Shown here: positions 3,646 through 28,669 of the stretch, piece by piece
Position numbering within the stretch: position 1 is the stretch's first letter
Layout: every line of letters starts with the position of its first letter
IMG/VR virus record: IMGVR_UViG_3300045284_000182
Location: 1 to 28,669 of that record
DNA length: 28,669 nt
Source of the DNA: a virus
Direction: 5' to 3' (one strand)
The notes under the pieces: generated by a model
Told to the model about the DNA's origin: nothing
What the model saw: only the letters and a program-made list of their open reading frames with translations
Databases searched by the model: none
Translations under genes and position numbers: made by a program

Positions 3646-3873
3646 TTATTCCTCCTCGAGCCGCCGGCCGATCTCCCGCCAGTCCTGCACCGTGCGGTAC
3701 GGCACCCCGATCGCTTTCCCGAGCGCGCGGTCGCTCCACCCGTCCAGGCTCGCCTCGTAGGTCGCCCGGTACAGAGCCTCCTTCGCGGTCTCCTCTTCCC
3801 GTCGCGCAGCGGTGAGCTGGTCGTGGAGGGCGCGGACACGGTCGGCGCTCTCCCGGGGCGGGTTGCGGGCCAC
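3646..3873 (-). CDS. Small helix-turn-helix DNA-binding protein (regulator candidate)
   Basis: 75 residues from GTG at 3873 on the minus strand. The first half is a charged helical region, likely coiled coil (residues about 10-43). The second half reads WSDRALGKAIGVPYRTVQDW at about 46-65, a typical helix-turn-helix with a sigma-region-4 or Xre-like recognition helix, and the protein ends in RRLEEE. It is divergent from the excisionase and integrase genes, with a 266-bp control region between them that contains an inverted repeat and phased direct repeats. That arrangement fits a regulator of the lysis-lysogeny or integration decision. No other repressor is visible, so this is the best immunity-repressor candidate, although at 75 residues it would lack the usual C-terminal domain. 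A terminase-small-subunit-like HTH is an alternative, but the position argues against it. Confidence 0.65.
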   Translation of the reverse strand: MARNPPRESADRVRALHDQLTAARREEETAKEALYRATYEASLDGWSDRALGKAIGVPYRTVQDWREIGRRLEEE

Positions 3874-3888
3874 GCGCTACAGGTTGGC

Positions 3889-3946
3889 CGAACCCGCGCC
3901 CCGCTGCTTGCACGGGCAACCATGCGTTGTTAGTGTCGCGGGTTCG
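3889..3946. repeat. 10-bp perfect inverted repeat in the control region
   Basis: CGAACCCGCG at 3889-3898 and its exact reverse complement CGCGGGTTCG at 3937-3946, with 38 bp between them. It lies just upstream of the minus-strand HTH gene. It could be an operator pair allowing looping, or the arms of a recombination site. The spacing is too long for a typical terminator hairpin. Confidence 0.6.
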
Positions 3947-4033
3947 CGGGCAGGCACTCCTGGGGGGGCAAGTTGGCGAAGTCGTTGTTGCGCAGGCGCG
4001 AACGTTTCGACCGCAAACAGCGACACTTCCGCA

Positions 4034-4103
4034 TGTCCTCGTTTGTCCCCGCCTGTCCCCGGTTGTCTCTCATCGTCCTCTCATGTCCTCGTTTGTCCCC
4101 GGA
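4034..4103. repeat. Seven direct repeats at exact 10-bp spacing (iterons)
   Basis: Units begin at 4034, 4044, 4054, 4064, 4074, 4084 and 4094. Five of the seven start TGTCC; units 4 and 5 are degenerate (TGTCT, CGTCC). The consensus is TGTCCYCGNN. Units 1-2 recur exactly as units 6-7, giving a 19-bp identical stretch at 4032-4050 and 4082-4100. Ten-bp spacing puts every unit on the same face of the helix. The array ends 36 bp before the excisionase start. Excisionases of the lambda Xis and P2 Cox type bind phased direct repeats cooperatively, so this is a likely Xis or repressor filament site. Confidence 0.8.
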
Positions 4104-4139
4104 CGGTGCCTGGCTAGAGGCGGTAGAACCGGTCGTGCT

Positions 4140-4331
4140 GTGACTCTGCTCTCCACCCGCGACGCCGCGAAACAGCTCGGTGTCAGCACCAAAACGGTGC
4201 TCCGCTACACCAAGAAGGGGCTCCCGTTCTACGACCTCCCCGGCGGGCTGCGGTTCGACCCCGACGAGATCTACGAGTGGATCGAGCAGTACCACCGCCG
4301 CAACGGCAACGGATCCGAGCGGCACGAGTAG
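4140..4331 (+). CDS. xis: Excisionase-like MerR/HTH_17 DNA-binding protein
   Basis: 63 residues from GTG 4140. Almost the whole protein is one helix-turn-helix of the excisionase/MerR type: LLSTRDAAKQLGVSTKTVLR (about 3-22), then the wing (LPFYDLPGGLRFDPDEIYEW, about 29-48). In this family the N-terminal helix-turn-helix and the beta-wing bind DNA, and recombination directionality factors are short versions of it. It lies 4 bp before the integrase and directly after a phased repeat array. It probably controls excision by binding near attP and may also regulate int transcription. The ribosome binding site is weak (only an AGAGGCGG-like stretch upstream), so an upstream in-frame ATG near 4083 cannot be excluded, although that extension is not protein-like. 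Confidence 0.8.
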   Translation: MTLLSTRDAAKQLGVSTKTVLRYTKKGLPFYDLPGGLRFDPDEIYEWIEQYHRRNGNGSERHE

Positions 4332-4335
4332 TACG

Positions 4336-5418
4336 ATGCCTCCAACCATAAAAAGCCCGGCACCGCTCACACGGCCCGGGCGCGGCACAGGAGGAATCAG
4401 CTCCCATGCGTTCCCTACGCTACAAGCCCTCGCCGACGCAGCACGGCTGCTGCGCGAATCGGTGAAAGACAACTCGTACCGCGCGACCCCCCTCGGCTTA
4501 GAGGTCGCCCGGTACATCCGCTGGTTCCGGTCCGAGTGGGGCGCAGCCCCCGGCAGCATCGACAAATACGAGCAAGCACTCGCGAGGCTCTCGCTGTATT
4601 TCGCCGACCTCGAGCTCACCGATATGGAGGCGCCGGTCGGGGTCGAGCGGCTCCGCGAGTGCCTCGACCATTACTGGGGCACGGTCGAGCCCGCGACCCG
4701 TGGCCGGGTGATCGCGACGTGGCGGTCGTTCTTCGACTGGGCGATCCGCGAGAACCGCGGGATCATCTCGAACCCGGCCCGCGCGTTGACGATGCCGAAA
4801 CGGCGCGACACGCGCCGGGAGCCGTTCCCGGAGAAGTTCGTCCGCCGCGCGGTCGCGCAACGCCACGGCTGCGACCGCTGCGGCGTCGTCCTCGTGCTCC
4901 TCTACGGCGTCCGCCGGGCCGAGCTCGCCGGCGTCCAGTTCCGTCACTTCGACTTCGGCTACCGGCAGCTCTCACTCGTCGGGAAAGGCGGCAAGGTCAG
5001 GATCATCCCGATCGTCGAGGACGAGTTCTGGGTCGACCTCACCTCGTTGGAGCTCGACCAGGGCGGCCCCGACATCGCCGGCGACAAGTACCTGATCTGC
5101 CCCAGGCGCAGGACCGGGATGAACACCACGTTCTTCCACGCGAAAAGGATGCTCCCCCGCGCGATCGACCGCTGGTGGTACGACCGGCTCGAGGAGGTCG
5201 ACCTGATCCAGCCCGACGCCCGGCGGGATCACGGGATGCACCGCGGCCGCCACACCGTCGCGACCGAGATCCTCCGCGAGACCGGCAACATCGTCGCGGC
5301 GCAGGAGCTCCTCGGGCACTCCTCCCCGGAGACGACACGGCAGTACTACGCCGGATTCGACACCCGTGACCTCGAGGCCGTCATCCGCGCCGCACGCGCC
5401 CGGAGTGGCACAGCATGA
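4336..5418 (+). CDS. int: Tyrosine recombinase, phage integrase
   Basis: 360 residues from ATG 4336. The catalytic set is complete: Arg193 in GVRRAEL, Lys220 in GKGGKVR, His302 and Arg305 in MHRGRHT, His328 in LLGHSS and Tyr337 in TTRQYY. The N-terminal part (about 25-155) is the SAM-like core-binding domain, with LLRESVKDNSYRATPLGLEV at about 38-57. I remember that motif from integrases of actinobacterial elements, and it argues for a start upstream of it. The enzyme integrates the phage genome at a bacterial attB and, with the excisionase-like protein 4 bp upstream, excises it. An excellent Shine-Dalgarno with an out-of-frame ATG (4406) lies inside the beginning of the gene. GTG 4462 is an alternative start that would remove part of the conserved N-terminal region. 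The next gene overlaps by ATGA at 5415. Confidence 0.93.
   Translation: MPPTIKSPAPLTRPGRGTGGISSHAFPTLQALADAARLLRESVKDNSYRATPLGLEVARYIRWFRSEWGAAPGSIDKYEQALARLSLYFADLELTDMEAPVGVERLRECLDHYWGTVEPATRGRVIATWRSFFDWAIRENRGIISNPARALTMPKRRDTRREPFPEKFVRRAVAQRHGCDRCGVVLVLLYGVRRAELAGVQFRHFDFGYRQLSLVGKGGKVRIIPIVEDEFWVDLTSLELDQGGPDIAGDKYLICPRRRTGMNTTFFHAKRMLPRAIDRWWYDRLEEVDLIQPDARRDHGMHRGRHTVATEILRETGNIVAAQELLGHSSPETTRQYYAGFDTRDLEAVIRAARARSGTA
4406..4465 (+). CDS. Possible 19-codon leader peptide within int
   Basis: AGGAGGA at 4389-4395 is followed 10 nt later by ATG 4406, which opens a 19-codon frame out of phase with int. That frame stops at TGA 4463-4465, overlapping an in-frame integrase GTG (4462) as GTGA. 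This looks like a translation-coupling device that could give a shorter integrase from GTG 4462. It may equally be chance in a GC-rich sequence. The peptide has no recognisable function. Confidence 0.25.
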   Translation: MRSLRYKPSPTQHGCCANR

Positions 5419-5849
5419 GCGACAAGCCGGAAATCAAGTGGATCGAGGACACGCGCATACTCTCGATAGTGGGGGCGCCGCCCGGGTGGTACTCGCTGAC
5501 CCGCCGCGACGACGACAACGGCTACGACCCGAAAGGCGGGTCAATCCATGACGTCGCCTACGTCGAGCCGATCGCCTTTTTCGCGCTCCTCGAAACCGTC
5601 GAACGTCGCTACAAAATCACGAAGGACAAGGACGGCGAGGAGGTTTGGGAGTCAACCGGCGAGACGGACGTGGACAAGGACGGGGGCTTTCCGCACACCT
5701 ACGTCAAACCGGTCGCGTGGCACTCGGGCGAGGAGGACTTTCCGGGCGCCGACGAGCTCGGCCTCTTGTCCAGTCAGGGGCTCGTCGTCAACCCCATGCA
5801 TGACCTGAACGCGTCCTGGATCCGCGCCCGGTTCGGTCCCAAAACATGA
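5415..5849 (+). CDS. Hypothetical acidic protein downstream of int
   Basis: 144 residues from ATG 5415, overlapping the integrase stop by ATGA, so it is probably translated with it. The protein is acidic and rich in Asp, Glu and Lys, especially at about 70-95 (ITKDKDGEEVW, GETDVDKDGGFPH). Aromatic stretches such as APPGWYSLTRRDDDNGYDP suggest a folded soluble domain. I see no signal peptide, membrane segment or catalytic motif and do not recognise a family. Coupling to int hints at a role in the lysogenic stage or in host interaction, but that is only context. A low-GC non-coding stretch follows. Confidence 0.7.
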   Translation: MSDKPEIKWIEDTRILSIVGAPPGWYSLTRRDDDNGYDPKGGSIHDVAYVEPIAFFALLETVERRYKITKDKDGEEVWESTGETDVDKDGGFPHTYVKPVAWHSGEEDFPGADELGLLSSQGLVVNPMHDLNASWIRARFGPKT

Positions 5850-6033
5850 GTGTAATACAGCTTTCGCTCAACCATGCGGGTTGCAGCGTTTTAAGACAGG
5901 AAAGCATAGTTAGGTGTCCCCAGCAACCCGATAACCATGCGGGACTGCCGGCTGGGCTAGCGGATTGTTTCCGCTGTTCTGCTCCGCTAGGCGGTAGGCC
6001 GTATTTCCCTGCAAACGGCTTGATTTCGGCGTG
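5850..6033. promoter_or_regulatory. AT-richer non-coding region before the methylase
   Basis: About 184 bp of visibly lower GC than its surroundings. It contains an 11-bp direct repeat AACCATGCGGG at 5870-5880 and 5933-5943, an 8-bp inverted repeat CGGGTTGC/GCAACCCG at 5877-5884 and 5923-5930, and a head-on pair of the start-associated repeat at 5955-5992. An open frame of 62 codons crosses the region but is not protein-like. It may hold a promoter, a structured RNA or attP. The base composition shift could mark a recombination boundary. Confidence 0.5.
5955..5992. repeat. Head-on pair of start-associated repeats
   Basis: The minus strand of 5971-5992 reads GCCTAGCGGAGCAGAAC, a 16-of-17 match to the repeat found before the next five genes. 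On the plus strand, 5955-5965 carries GGCTAGCGGAT, a shorter copy. Together they make a perfect 8-bp inverted repeat, CTAGCGGA (5957-5964) with TCCGCTAG (5983-5990), with an 18-nt loop. An opposite-strand copy outside any gene shows the element is a DNA or RNA repeat and not only shared protein sequence. Confidence 0.75.
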
Positions 6034-6669
6034 ATGCCGTACTACGCCGACGACTGGGTCACGATCTATCACGGCGACTGCCGCGAGTTCATGCCTGACT
6101 GCGACATCGTCCTCGGCGACCCGCCCTACGGAGTCGGGATGGAATACGGGGCGTTCGAGGACACCCCGGAGCGGGTCGCGGAGCTCGCCGCAGCGATGCT
6201 CCCGATCTTCCGGCAGGCCGGGCGGGTGGTCGCACTGACACCCGGGATCGTCAACCTCTCGAGGTGGCCTGACCCAGACTGGTGCCTCGCCTGGGTGTGG
6301 GAGCACACGGGCTCGACGGGTAAGTGGGGCTTCAACCAGTGGGGACCGATCCTCGTCTGGGGCACCGACCCGATGCTGAAGGCGGGACGTGGTCGGTTCC
6401 CGGACGTTATTCGCTGTCAGGCGAACGAGGAGCCGCCACCGTTCGGTCATCCCTGCCCGAAACCGATGCGGGCGTGGCGCCGGATCCTGCTGCGACTATC
6501 GCTACCGGGCCAGACGGTAGTCGACCCGTTCATGGGAAGCGGCACAACTCTCCGAGCCGCAAAAGATCTTGGCCGCAAAGCGATCGGGATCGAGCTCGAG
6601 GAGCGCTACTGCGAGGTCGCGGCGAACCGTTGCGCCCAGGAGGTTCTCGACCTGCGGGGTGTCGCGTGA
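6034..6669 (+). CDS. DNA N6-adenine or N4-cytosine methyltransferase (beta class order)
   Basis: 211 residues from ATG 6034 (GTG 6031 is an alternative). The catalytic motif IV is DPPYG (Asp29 to Gly33) near the N-terminus, and the SAM-binding motif I is DPFMGSGTTLRAA (164-176) near the C-terminus, followed by KAIGIELEERYCEVA. This IV-then-I order is that of the beta class of amino-methyltransferases. It transfers a methyl group from S-adenosylmethionine to an amino group of A or C in DNA. The region between the motifs (about 40-160), with many Trp residues, should contain the target recognition part. No restriction enzyme is nearby, so it is a solitary phage methylase, likely protecting phage DNA from host restriction or altering expression. 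The specificity cannot be read from sequence. Confidence 0.9.
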   Translation: MPYYADDWVTIYHGDCREFMPDCDIVLGDPPYGVGMEYGAFEDTPERVAELAAAMLPIFRQAGRVVALTPGIVNLSRWPDPDWCLAWVWEHTGSTGKWGFNQWGPILVWGTDPMLKAGRGRFPDVIRCQANEEPPPFGHPCPKPMRAWRRILLRLSLPGQTVVDPFMGSGTTLRAAKDLGRKAIGIELEERYCEVAANRCAQEVLDLRGVA

Positions 6670-27455: not shown

Positions 27456-28669
27456 CCCCGTGGGCCGAGTGAACATCGCGTTCGGGCAGCCGTCCCTCCT
27501 CTACGACTGCGACTGGACCCGGATCGACGACCATCCCCATTTGGTCACGAGCTACTCGATCGACCGTGGCCGCCAGTACGAGCTCGACCGCACCGACACC
27601 GGCCGCGCGACGGTCACGATCGCTGACCAGGACGGGATCCTCGACCCGACGAACGCGGACGGCCCCTACTACGGCGAGATCGAGCCGTTGATCCAGATCG
27701 CGCTCGGCCGCTGGAACCCCGTCACCGACACCTGGTACACCCGCTACCGCGGCTTCGTCGAGGACTACGACTACAGCTTCGACCCCTCGCAGCGGGTGAA
27801 CCGGCTCACGATCACGTGCGTCGACCTGTTCGAGATCCTGTCCGCGATCGAGATGACCCCGAGGTTCACGGGGGACACGCCGGCGTTCGGCGACGACCCC
27901 GCGATCGTCGCCCCGGACAGCCAGGGGCAGATCGTGTTCTCGAACGAGACGATGCAGGACCGCGTCCAGGGCGTCCTCGGGGACGCCGGGATCCCCGTCG
28001 ACTGGTTCGTGGTCTTCACCGGGAACGTGATGCTGTCGACGACGGTGTACGCACCGACCGAGAGCATCATGAGCGTGATCCAAGAAGCCTGCGACGGCGA
28101 GTTCCCCGCTGTCTCGAACGCGTACTGCGAGGGGCGCACCGGGAAGCTCGCGGTGCACGGCAGGCTCGCGAGGTTCGACCCGGCCGCGGTCCACGCCGAA
28201 CCCGGGGTGTCCGACGTGTGGGACTGGCACCACTGGCACGCCGGCGACGGCGCCGCCGTTGCGGCCGGCTCCGGTCTCGCGCACATCCGCGAGTTCGCGT
28301 TCAACCGCGGCCTGAGCAAGGTCATCAACAGCGCGTTCGCCTCCCCGGCGTACATCCTGTTCGACGGGACGCAGCTCGCGAACGCCGAAGGCGACGACTG
28401 GGCCCGCACAGACAACGCCGACTCGATCGCCCTGTACGGGATCCGCTCATGGTCGGCGGAGAACCTGATCACGCTGTACGGCCTCGACGGCGGCGCGACC
28501 CCCGGCCACGAGACCGTCGACGAGATCGTCAAGTTCACGGCTTACTACTGCTCGAACTACAACACCCCCCACAACAGGGTGACGTTGTGCGGGTTCCGGA
28601 CGATGAGCCCGGCGCAGCCGCACGCCGCCGCAACCTGGAACCTCCTCTCCCTGATCGAGATCGGCGACC
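27448..28669 (+). CDS. Siphovirus tail protein, N-terminal part (continues at 1..312)
   Basis: Starts at GTG 27448, overlapping the tape measure stop, and is open to the window edge; the rest is at 1-312 (468 residues in all). N-terminal sequence RVNIAFGQPSLLYDCDWTRI, then VTSYSIDRGRQYELDRTDTG, RATVTIADQDGILDPTN and YTRYRGFVEDYDYSFDPSQR, is the pattern of actinophage minor tail proteins downstream of the tape measure (Dit/gp27-like distal tail or hub). Further on, ILSAIEMTPRF, MQDRVQGVLGDAGI and ADSIALYGIRSWSAENLITL are typical of the same proteins. It probably forms the tail tip ring to which the fibre proteins (299-1911) attach. Confidence 0.9.
   Translation, partial: MADPVGRVNIAFGQPSLLYDCDWTRIDDHPHLVTSYSIDRGRQYELDRTDTGRATVTIADQDGILDPTNADGPYYGEIEPLIQIALGRWNPVTDTWYTRYRGFVEDYDYSFDPSQRVNRLTITCVDLFEILSAIEMTPRFTGDTPAFGDDPAIVAPDSQGQIVFSNETMQDRVQGVLGDAGIPVDWFVVFTGNVMLSTTVYAPTESIMSVIQEACDGEFPAVSNAYCEGRTGKLAVHGRLARFDPAAVHAEPGVSDVWDWHHWHAGDGAAVAAGSGLAHIREFAFNRGLSKVINSAFASPAYILFDGTQLANAEGDDWARTDNADSIALYGIRSWSAENLITLYGLDGGATPGHETVDEIVKFTAYYCSNYNTPHNRVTLCGFRTMSPAQPHAAATWNLLSLIEIGD
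28543..28669. repeat. 127-bp terminal direct repeat, right copy
   Basis: Identical to bases 1-127. The coding frame of the tail gene passes without change, since base 28669 and base 127 have the same codon position. Removing one copy gives a circle of 28,542 bp. Confidence 0.97.

Follow-up and report, generated by a model that had tools for sequence, protein, structure and literature searches.

The stretch of DNA analysed here (the window; 28,669 nt) carries identical ends of 127 bp (positions 1–127 and 28543–28669), by which it is identified as a complete circular phage genome of 28,542 bp. On its plus strand, a gene for a 63-aa protein of the HTH_17/excisionase family, here called xis (4140..4331; start codon GTG), precedes the gene for a tyrosine integrase of 318 aa (4462..5418; Pfam Phage_integrase), the start of which was inferred from a GTGA overlap. 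A small helix-turn-helix (HTH) protein of 75 aa is encoded divergently on the minus strand (3646..3873); it matches Pfam HTH_23 (1.7e-4) below the curated cut-off, and its gene is kept in the related loci L004 and L016. An array of seven 10-bp units (4034..4103, plus strand), the proposed head-to-tail binding array and operator of Xis, lies between the divergent genes.

A 19-aa leader open reading frame (ORF; 4406–4465) starts at the hairpin RNA described next, upstream of the integrase gene, and its stop codon overlaps the integrase GTG (GTGA). Leader ORFs of 14–29 aa are likewise present in most other phages of the set described below, where they stop only a few bases from the start of the integrase frame, an arrangement which suggests that integrase translation is coupled to that of the leader ORF. 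The region further specifies a conserved two-hairpin RNA (window 4355–4409), which recurs in at least 35 other loci (e.g., L053, L056, L058–L061), where it precedes int in many phages and other genes in chromosomes of Thermoleophilia and Acidimicrobiia. Hairpin 1 has a GC stem in which the pairs change together between loci, while in hairpin 2, GGCACAGGAGGNNNNNNCTCCCATGC, GGAG/CUCC and GCA/UGC pairs bury the ribosome site and the start codon; only the first hairpin provides independent evidence, because the search pattern fixed the second. No Rfam family was found in window 3850–6050, and the two-hairpin RNA is a candidate for a new translational switch or riboswitch.

The units of the array, with the consensus TGTCCYCGNN, read TGTCCTCGTT (unit 1, at 4034), TGTCCCCGCC (4044), TGTCCCCGGT (4054), TGTCTCTCAT (4064), CGTCCTCTCA (4074), TGTCCTCGTT again (unit 6, at 4084, the same sequence as unit 1) and TGTCCCCGGA (unit 7, from 4094 to the array end at 4103), where units 4 and 5 are degenerate and in register. 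All steps measure exactly 10 bp, and a gap of 36 bp separates the array end from the GTG of xis. The original prediction, which had described seven TGTCCYCG units in this register and at this place, two of them degenerate, is confirmed in every one of these particulars. Exact TGTCCYCG occurs nine times on the two strands of the window, where 4.05 occurrences are expected, and five of the nine are clustered within the 70 bp of the array. The top lag-10 self-match of the whole window is the array itself (37 out of 60; 200 dinucleotide shuffles gave a mean of 30.6 and a maximum of 35); of all lags from 5 to 30, the three that score highest over the 150 bp preceding xis are 10, 20 and 30. This signal and the strict 10-bp register uphold the predicted helical phasing, which is that of a head-to-tail filament, and the array conforms, by its direct repeats spaced one helical turn apart, to a tandem operator of the recombination directionality factor (RDF) type, such as the sites of Apl, Cox and Xis. 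A position-weight matrix scan allowing steps of 9–11 bp revealed no second array in the window genome; as the window is a closed circle, this absence is meaningful.

Directly 5′ of the array lies a conserved box, CCGCAAACAGCGACACTTCCG (4011..4031, plus strand), and versions of it (GCAAA..GCGG..A.TTCC) precede the arrays in L004, L016, L032, L033 and L001. The inferred xis promoter includes a −10-like TAGAAC (4124..4129, plus strand) situated 20 bp downstream of the array end and 10 bp upstream of the xis start codon; the xis mRNA is probably near-leaderless. A −10-like TARAAM occupies the same place in L004, L016 (as TAAACC), L032, L033, L001 and L002. The arrays of the relatives lie at roughly −106 to −23 with respect to the start codon, in either orientation, and end 10–24 bp before the −10-like box, and the −35 boxes are poor in all array-bearing promoters compared.

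Family models and fold both place the 63-aa protein among the winged-HTH proteins of the excisionase type (HTH_17/TIGR01764). It scores above the cut-off with Pfam HTH_17 (PF12728; 2.8e-9, 37.5 bits; cut-off 27) and with NCBIfam TIGR01764, “excise” (29.4 bits; cut-off 28.8), and its sequence relatives in the PDB are the Xis of Pukovnik (4j2n; 1.6e-5) and BldC (6ama; 4.7e-5), as well as RacA. With the NCBIfam model HTH_BldC, it is not listed at E < 0.01, and the Xis-type protein of L016 reaches 52.5 bits, below the cut-off of 77. The AlphaFold2 model of the 63-aa protein (pLDDT 84) resembles 4j2n (Z 7.3), BldC 6amk (Z 7.0) and 8dgl (Z 6.8), and is also close to the GIsul2 excisionase and to the wHTH domains of terminase small subunits. 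These Z scores are middling and backed by the PDB sequence matches; a likeness of predicted folds would by itself not reveal function.

An unbiased probe, consisting of the conserved sequence just before int, returned 29 viral stretches, and the locus set comprised 29 distinct loci, the window included, nine with an HTH_17 gene upstream and 20 others. At least four YGTCC motifs in one 10-bp register were found in five of the nine HTH_17 loci versus none of the 20 others. A check for the array in related phages, as the original prediction had suggested, found it in L004 and L016. YGTCC arrays also occur in more distant relatives with other HTH_17 proteins: in L032, where six units YGTCCAGR (P = 0.002 versus shuffles) accompany a very different HTH_17 protein; in L001, with six units on the opposite strand, four of which have YGTCC in register (P = 0.002 versus shuffles); and, in a weaker reversed form (TGTCCACGTC TGTCCCGCCC TGACCACTTC), in L033. 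The small HTH protein in L001, L032 and L033 differs in type from that of the window; nevertheless, the arrays are still at the HTH_17 promoter.

Across the relatives, the array is tied to the excisionase gene, with the exceptions of L002, L027 and L044, three HTH_17 loci in which the YGTCC array is absent. L002 exhibits only a weak lag-10 signal, and L036, which carries an HTH_3 regulator, a lag-10 signal of another sequence. The repeat block of L027 (lag 10, upstream −593) was rejected as an operator array, being a low-complexity GGCGCGGC run, and HTH_17 relatives identified by alignment search (L019–L023) occur in unrelated contexts, without arrays. A second relative of the L032 type was not found. 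The array motif alone is not specific virus-wide, because only three of the 11 viral contigs that match the window-type pattern are clearly xis/int loci. Among the others, repeats of TGTCCCCG were observed in L013 (at about 770–830), upstream of a gene for a Cro-type repressor, and in L006 and L011, between the terminase and portal genes.

In an unbiased search, the pattern TGTCCNNGNNTGTCCNNGNNTGTCC was furthermore sought in 399 Thermoleophilia genomes (the class of a Gaiellaceae genome) and in 375 from the class to which an Acidimicrobiaceae genome belongs. Triple TGTCCNNG arrays were present in five of these 774 genomes (three Thermoleophilia and two of the Acidimicrobiaceae class) and the reversed-pattern control yielded none; four of the five adjoin tRNA fragments of the type that integration usually leaves behind as a scar. 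L101 has the 3′ half of tRNA-Arg duplicated exactly over 44 nt, approximately 85 bp from five TGTCC units, which adjoin the arm-like sequences GTGTAATTCAG and ATGTAATTCC, with further TGTAATTC sites near the intact tRNA; this layout is that of an att site equipped with arm sites and X sites. The arrays of L102 and L103 lie 43–45 bp behind a tRNA-Thr, with a second tRNA-Thr fragment beyond, and that of L119/L121 is beside a tRNA-Arg copy of 41/43 nt, while L120 has a reversed array 72 bp upstream of a gene for a 93-aa HTH_17 protein. Since the unit is found at tRNA-linked scars as well as at HTH_17 promoters, it is used at both kinds of excisionase site, att and xis promoters.

Phages lambda and L5 have the classical arrangement, in which the core and arm sites for Int adjoin the X sites. 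That the array could at once be an X-site cluster and part of attP, with the sites for Int next to it, had been part of the original prediction; it now appears improbable. Host arrays of the TGTCC unit at 43–85 bp from tRNA cores speak in its favour, as do the arm-like sequences flanking the array of L101. However, the array and its flanks are common to phages with different integrases: in L004, the array is conserved, with Xis 92% and the small HTH protein 96% identical, next to an integrase different from that of the window, and in L016, an 8-unit array, Xis (59%) and HTH (66%) are combined with a third integrase. Conversely, L001, L002 and L003, with integrases 98, 90 and 90% identical to that of the window, do not have the window's array, which is thus not co-inherited with its integrase as a part of attP would be. 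Conserved with Int is instead a non-coding block after the integrase gene (5848..5947, plus strand), some 1.7 kb from the array. It consists of an arm-like GTGTAATACAG, similar to the arm-like sites of L101, and then a conserved 55-bp core; 31 bp at 94–100% and 55 bp at 87–96% identity are separated by a variable 14-bp spacer. The block is absent from L004 and common only to same-integrase phages, which keep it across changing gene contexts; it looks as attP should, and it is likely to be attP. The claim that the array is part of attP is not supported in this phage: L004 and L016 retain array and xis but have exchanged the integrase and the putative attP, and the Int-linked block is located elsewhere. 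The region 3874–4139 had no convincing attB-like match in 389 host-class genomes, a set that may omit the true host species, and this result is not decisive.

For the putative attP block, no attB was found in the 399 Thermoleophilia genomes, which returned only short matches. A 21-bp candidate, TTTCGCTCAACCATGCGGGTT, is located upstream of an HU-like gene, and another, AACCATGCGGG, is inside a tRNA-Ser gene terminator; both were read as regulatory or terminator sequence of the host and not as attB. The matches to AGGTGTCCCCAGCA in four genomes correspond to one orthologous coding gene. The sequence AACCATGCG(G) occurs thrice around xis–int (3918–3927, 5870–5879 and 5933–5942) and also in host chromosomes, upstream of the HU-like gene and in the tRNA-Ser terminator, and is possibly a regulatory or terminator motif of the host. 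The interval from int to the putative attP holds a gene for 144 aa (5415–5849) that is 98% identical at the DNA level to L004 and flanked on both sides by a sharp mosaic breakpoint, with different integrases on its left in L004 and the window.

The protein that binds the array could be the divergent 75-aa HTH protein, acting as a lysogeny repressor, rather than Xis. The array is within the promoter region that the two divergent genes share, the HTH gene is kept together with it in the window, L004 and L016, and it was not detected in L002, which itself is without the array. Nonetheless, host att scars and L120 have arrays without such a gene, the arrays of L001, L032 and L033 remain at the HTH_17 promoter next to a different type of small HTH, and head-to-tail arrays with 10-bp spacing have been documented as the way in which the HTH_17/Xis/BldC fold binds (PMC7498355, PMC5859096, PMC11963761); we therefore consider the 75-aa protein an unlikely operator-binding repressor here, and a less likely binder than the 63-aa protein. 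Somewhat more room, as a minority reading, is left for the HTH_17 protein being a BldC-like transcription factor only, with the array as its operator and no role in recombination in this phage. Such a function would agree with the lack of a second array at the putative attP, with one xis type being found beside three unrelated integrases, and with the BldC-model score of the L016 protein (~52 bits, under the cut-off of 77); against it stand the score with the NCBIfam excise model, above its cut-off, the adjacency of int and the occurrence of the TGTCC unit in tRNA-linked att scars of other elements. Genomes of this sort often contain short GC-rich repeats, yet it is very improbable that those of the window arose by chance or as a neutral minisatellite: the 10-bp register is strict though units are degenerate, the array is kept in L004 and L016, and different units recur at homologous promoters, so that the cross-phage data already disfavour this origin.

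We consider it probable that the array is an autoregulatory operator at the xis promoter, to which the phage's own winged-HTH protein of the excisionase family would bind cooperatively. The Xis-family site of the original prediction is supported by the HTH_17/TIGR01764 gene behind the array and by the TGTCC 10-bp grammar at tRNA-linked host att scars, and its operator function by the placement of the array, which ends 20 bp before the −10-like TAGAAC. One monomer would bind each 10-bp unit via the core YGTCC, and monomers would line up head to tail on one face of the DNA to form a short filament that bends it; single sites would be weak and neighbours one turn apart strongly cooperative, as read from Apl, Cox and BldC. 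At the promoter side, the end of the filament would reach the −35 region, some 20 bp before the −10 box. Rising Xis would then most likely repress xis and the integrase cistron behind it: the position of the last unit at the −35 region favours repression, and activation, in promoters that all have poor −35 boxes, is the less likely alternative. The outcome could be a concentration-dependent excision/lytic switch. What the sequences themselves show is the array with its register and position, that it is inherited with xis rather than with int, and that it recurs with other HTH_17 genes and at tRNA-linked att scars; binding, filament formation, the sign of regulation and the role of the 63-aa protein in excision are deductions. 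As the putative attP carries no second array, a role of this protein in excision is only putative.

A wider proposition is put forward tentatively: in these actinobacterial phages, the only strong array of the excisionase-family protein would be at its own promoter, detached from attP; a cassette of HTH regulator, YGTCC array and xis would be exchanged among unrelated integrases; and the YGTCC code would also serve at the tRNA att sites of other elements. If true, a shared excisionase operator code couples the control of excision to whichever integrase sits behind. YGTCC every 10 bp would constitute a readable code for excisionase-family proteins in poorly known phages and integrative elements of soil actinobacteria, usable to locate att sites and switch promoters from sequence alone. 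The natural variants (arrays of five to eight units in both orientations, and one xis type combined with three integrases) would allow one to test whether filament length sets the threshold for lysis–lysogeny or excision.

The binding of RDFs to tandem sites with a spacing of one helical turn is cooperative, and Apl of phage 186 has seven such sites between the early promoters (pR–pL) and five at attP (PMC7498355). The locus in the window shares with 186 a small excisionase/regulator and seven direct repeats about one helical turn apart in the early promoter region. It differs in that Apl also has attP sites, none of which were found at the putative attP of the window; in that pR and pL are face to face in 186, whereas the genes are divergent in the window; and in that Apl is a sequence outlier among RDFs, whereas the window protein belongs to HTH_17. 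P2 Cox (4lhf), a parallel already named in the original prediction, is likewise an excisionase and early-promoter regulator that forms filaments, but its sequence similarity to the 63-aa protein is weak (E 0.005), and, unlike in both 186 and P2, the putative attP of the window carries no second array.

Head-to-tail binding to promoter repeats is also the mode of BldC (PMC5859096). The window protein resembles it as a single-domain MerR-like/HTH_17 protein with direct repeats at promoters, in either orientation and of variable unit number; the BldC units, however, are ~9 bp and AT-rich (AATTNNNNC), those of the window 10 bp and GC-rich with the core YGTCC, and BldC is a chromosomal, developmental regulator, unlike the phage protein. 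The Xis of Pukovnik (4j2n) is the closest solved excisionase by sequence and fold (31% identity over 51 residues), a comparison made at the protein level; our literature search found no direct study of the sites of the Pukovnik or pSAM2 excisionases. RdfS of ICEMlSym-R7A, an HTH_17-type excisionase, forms filaments and binds attP as well as its own promoter (PMC11963761); compared with the window, RdfS (PDB 8dgl) has sites without a consensus unit and an extra N-terminal helix. That the array is a further example of this known type of switch, with an unusually clear comparative record, is well supported by the sequences compared.
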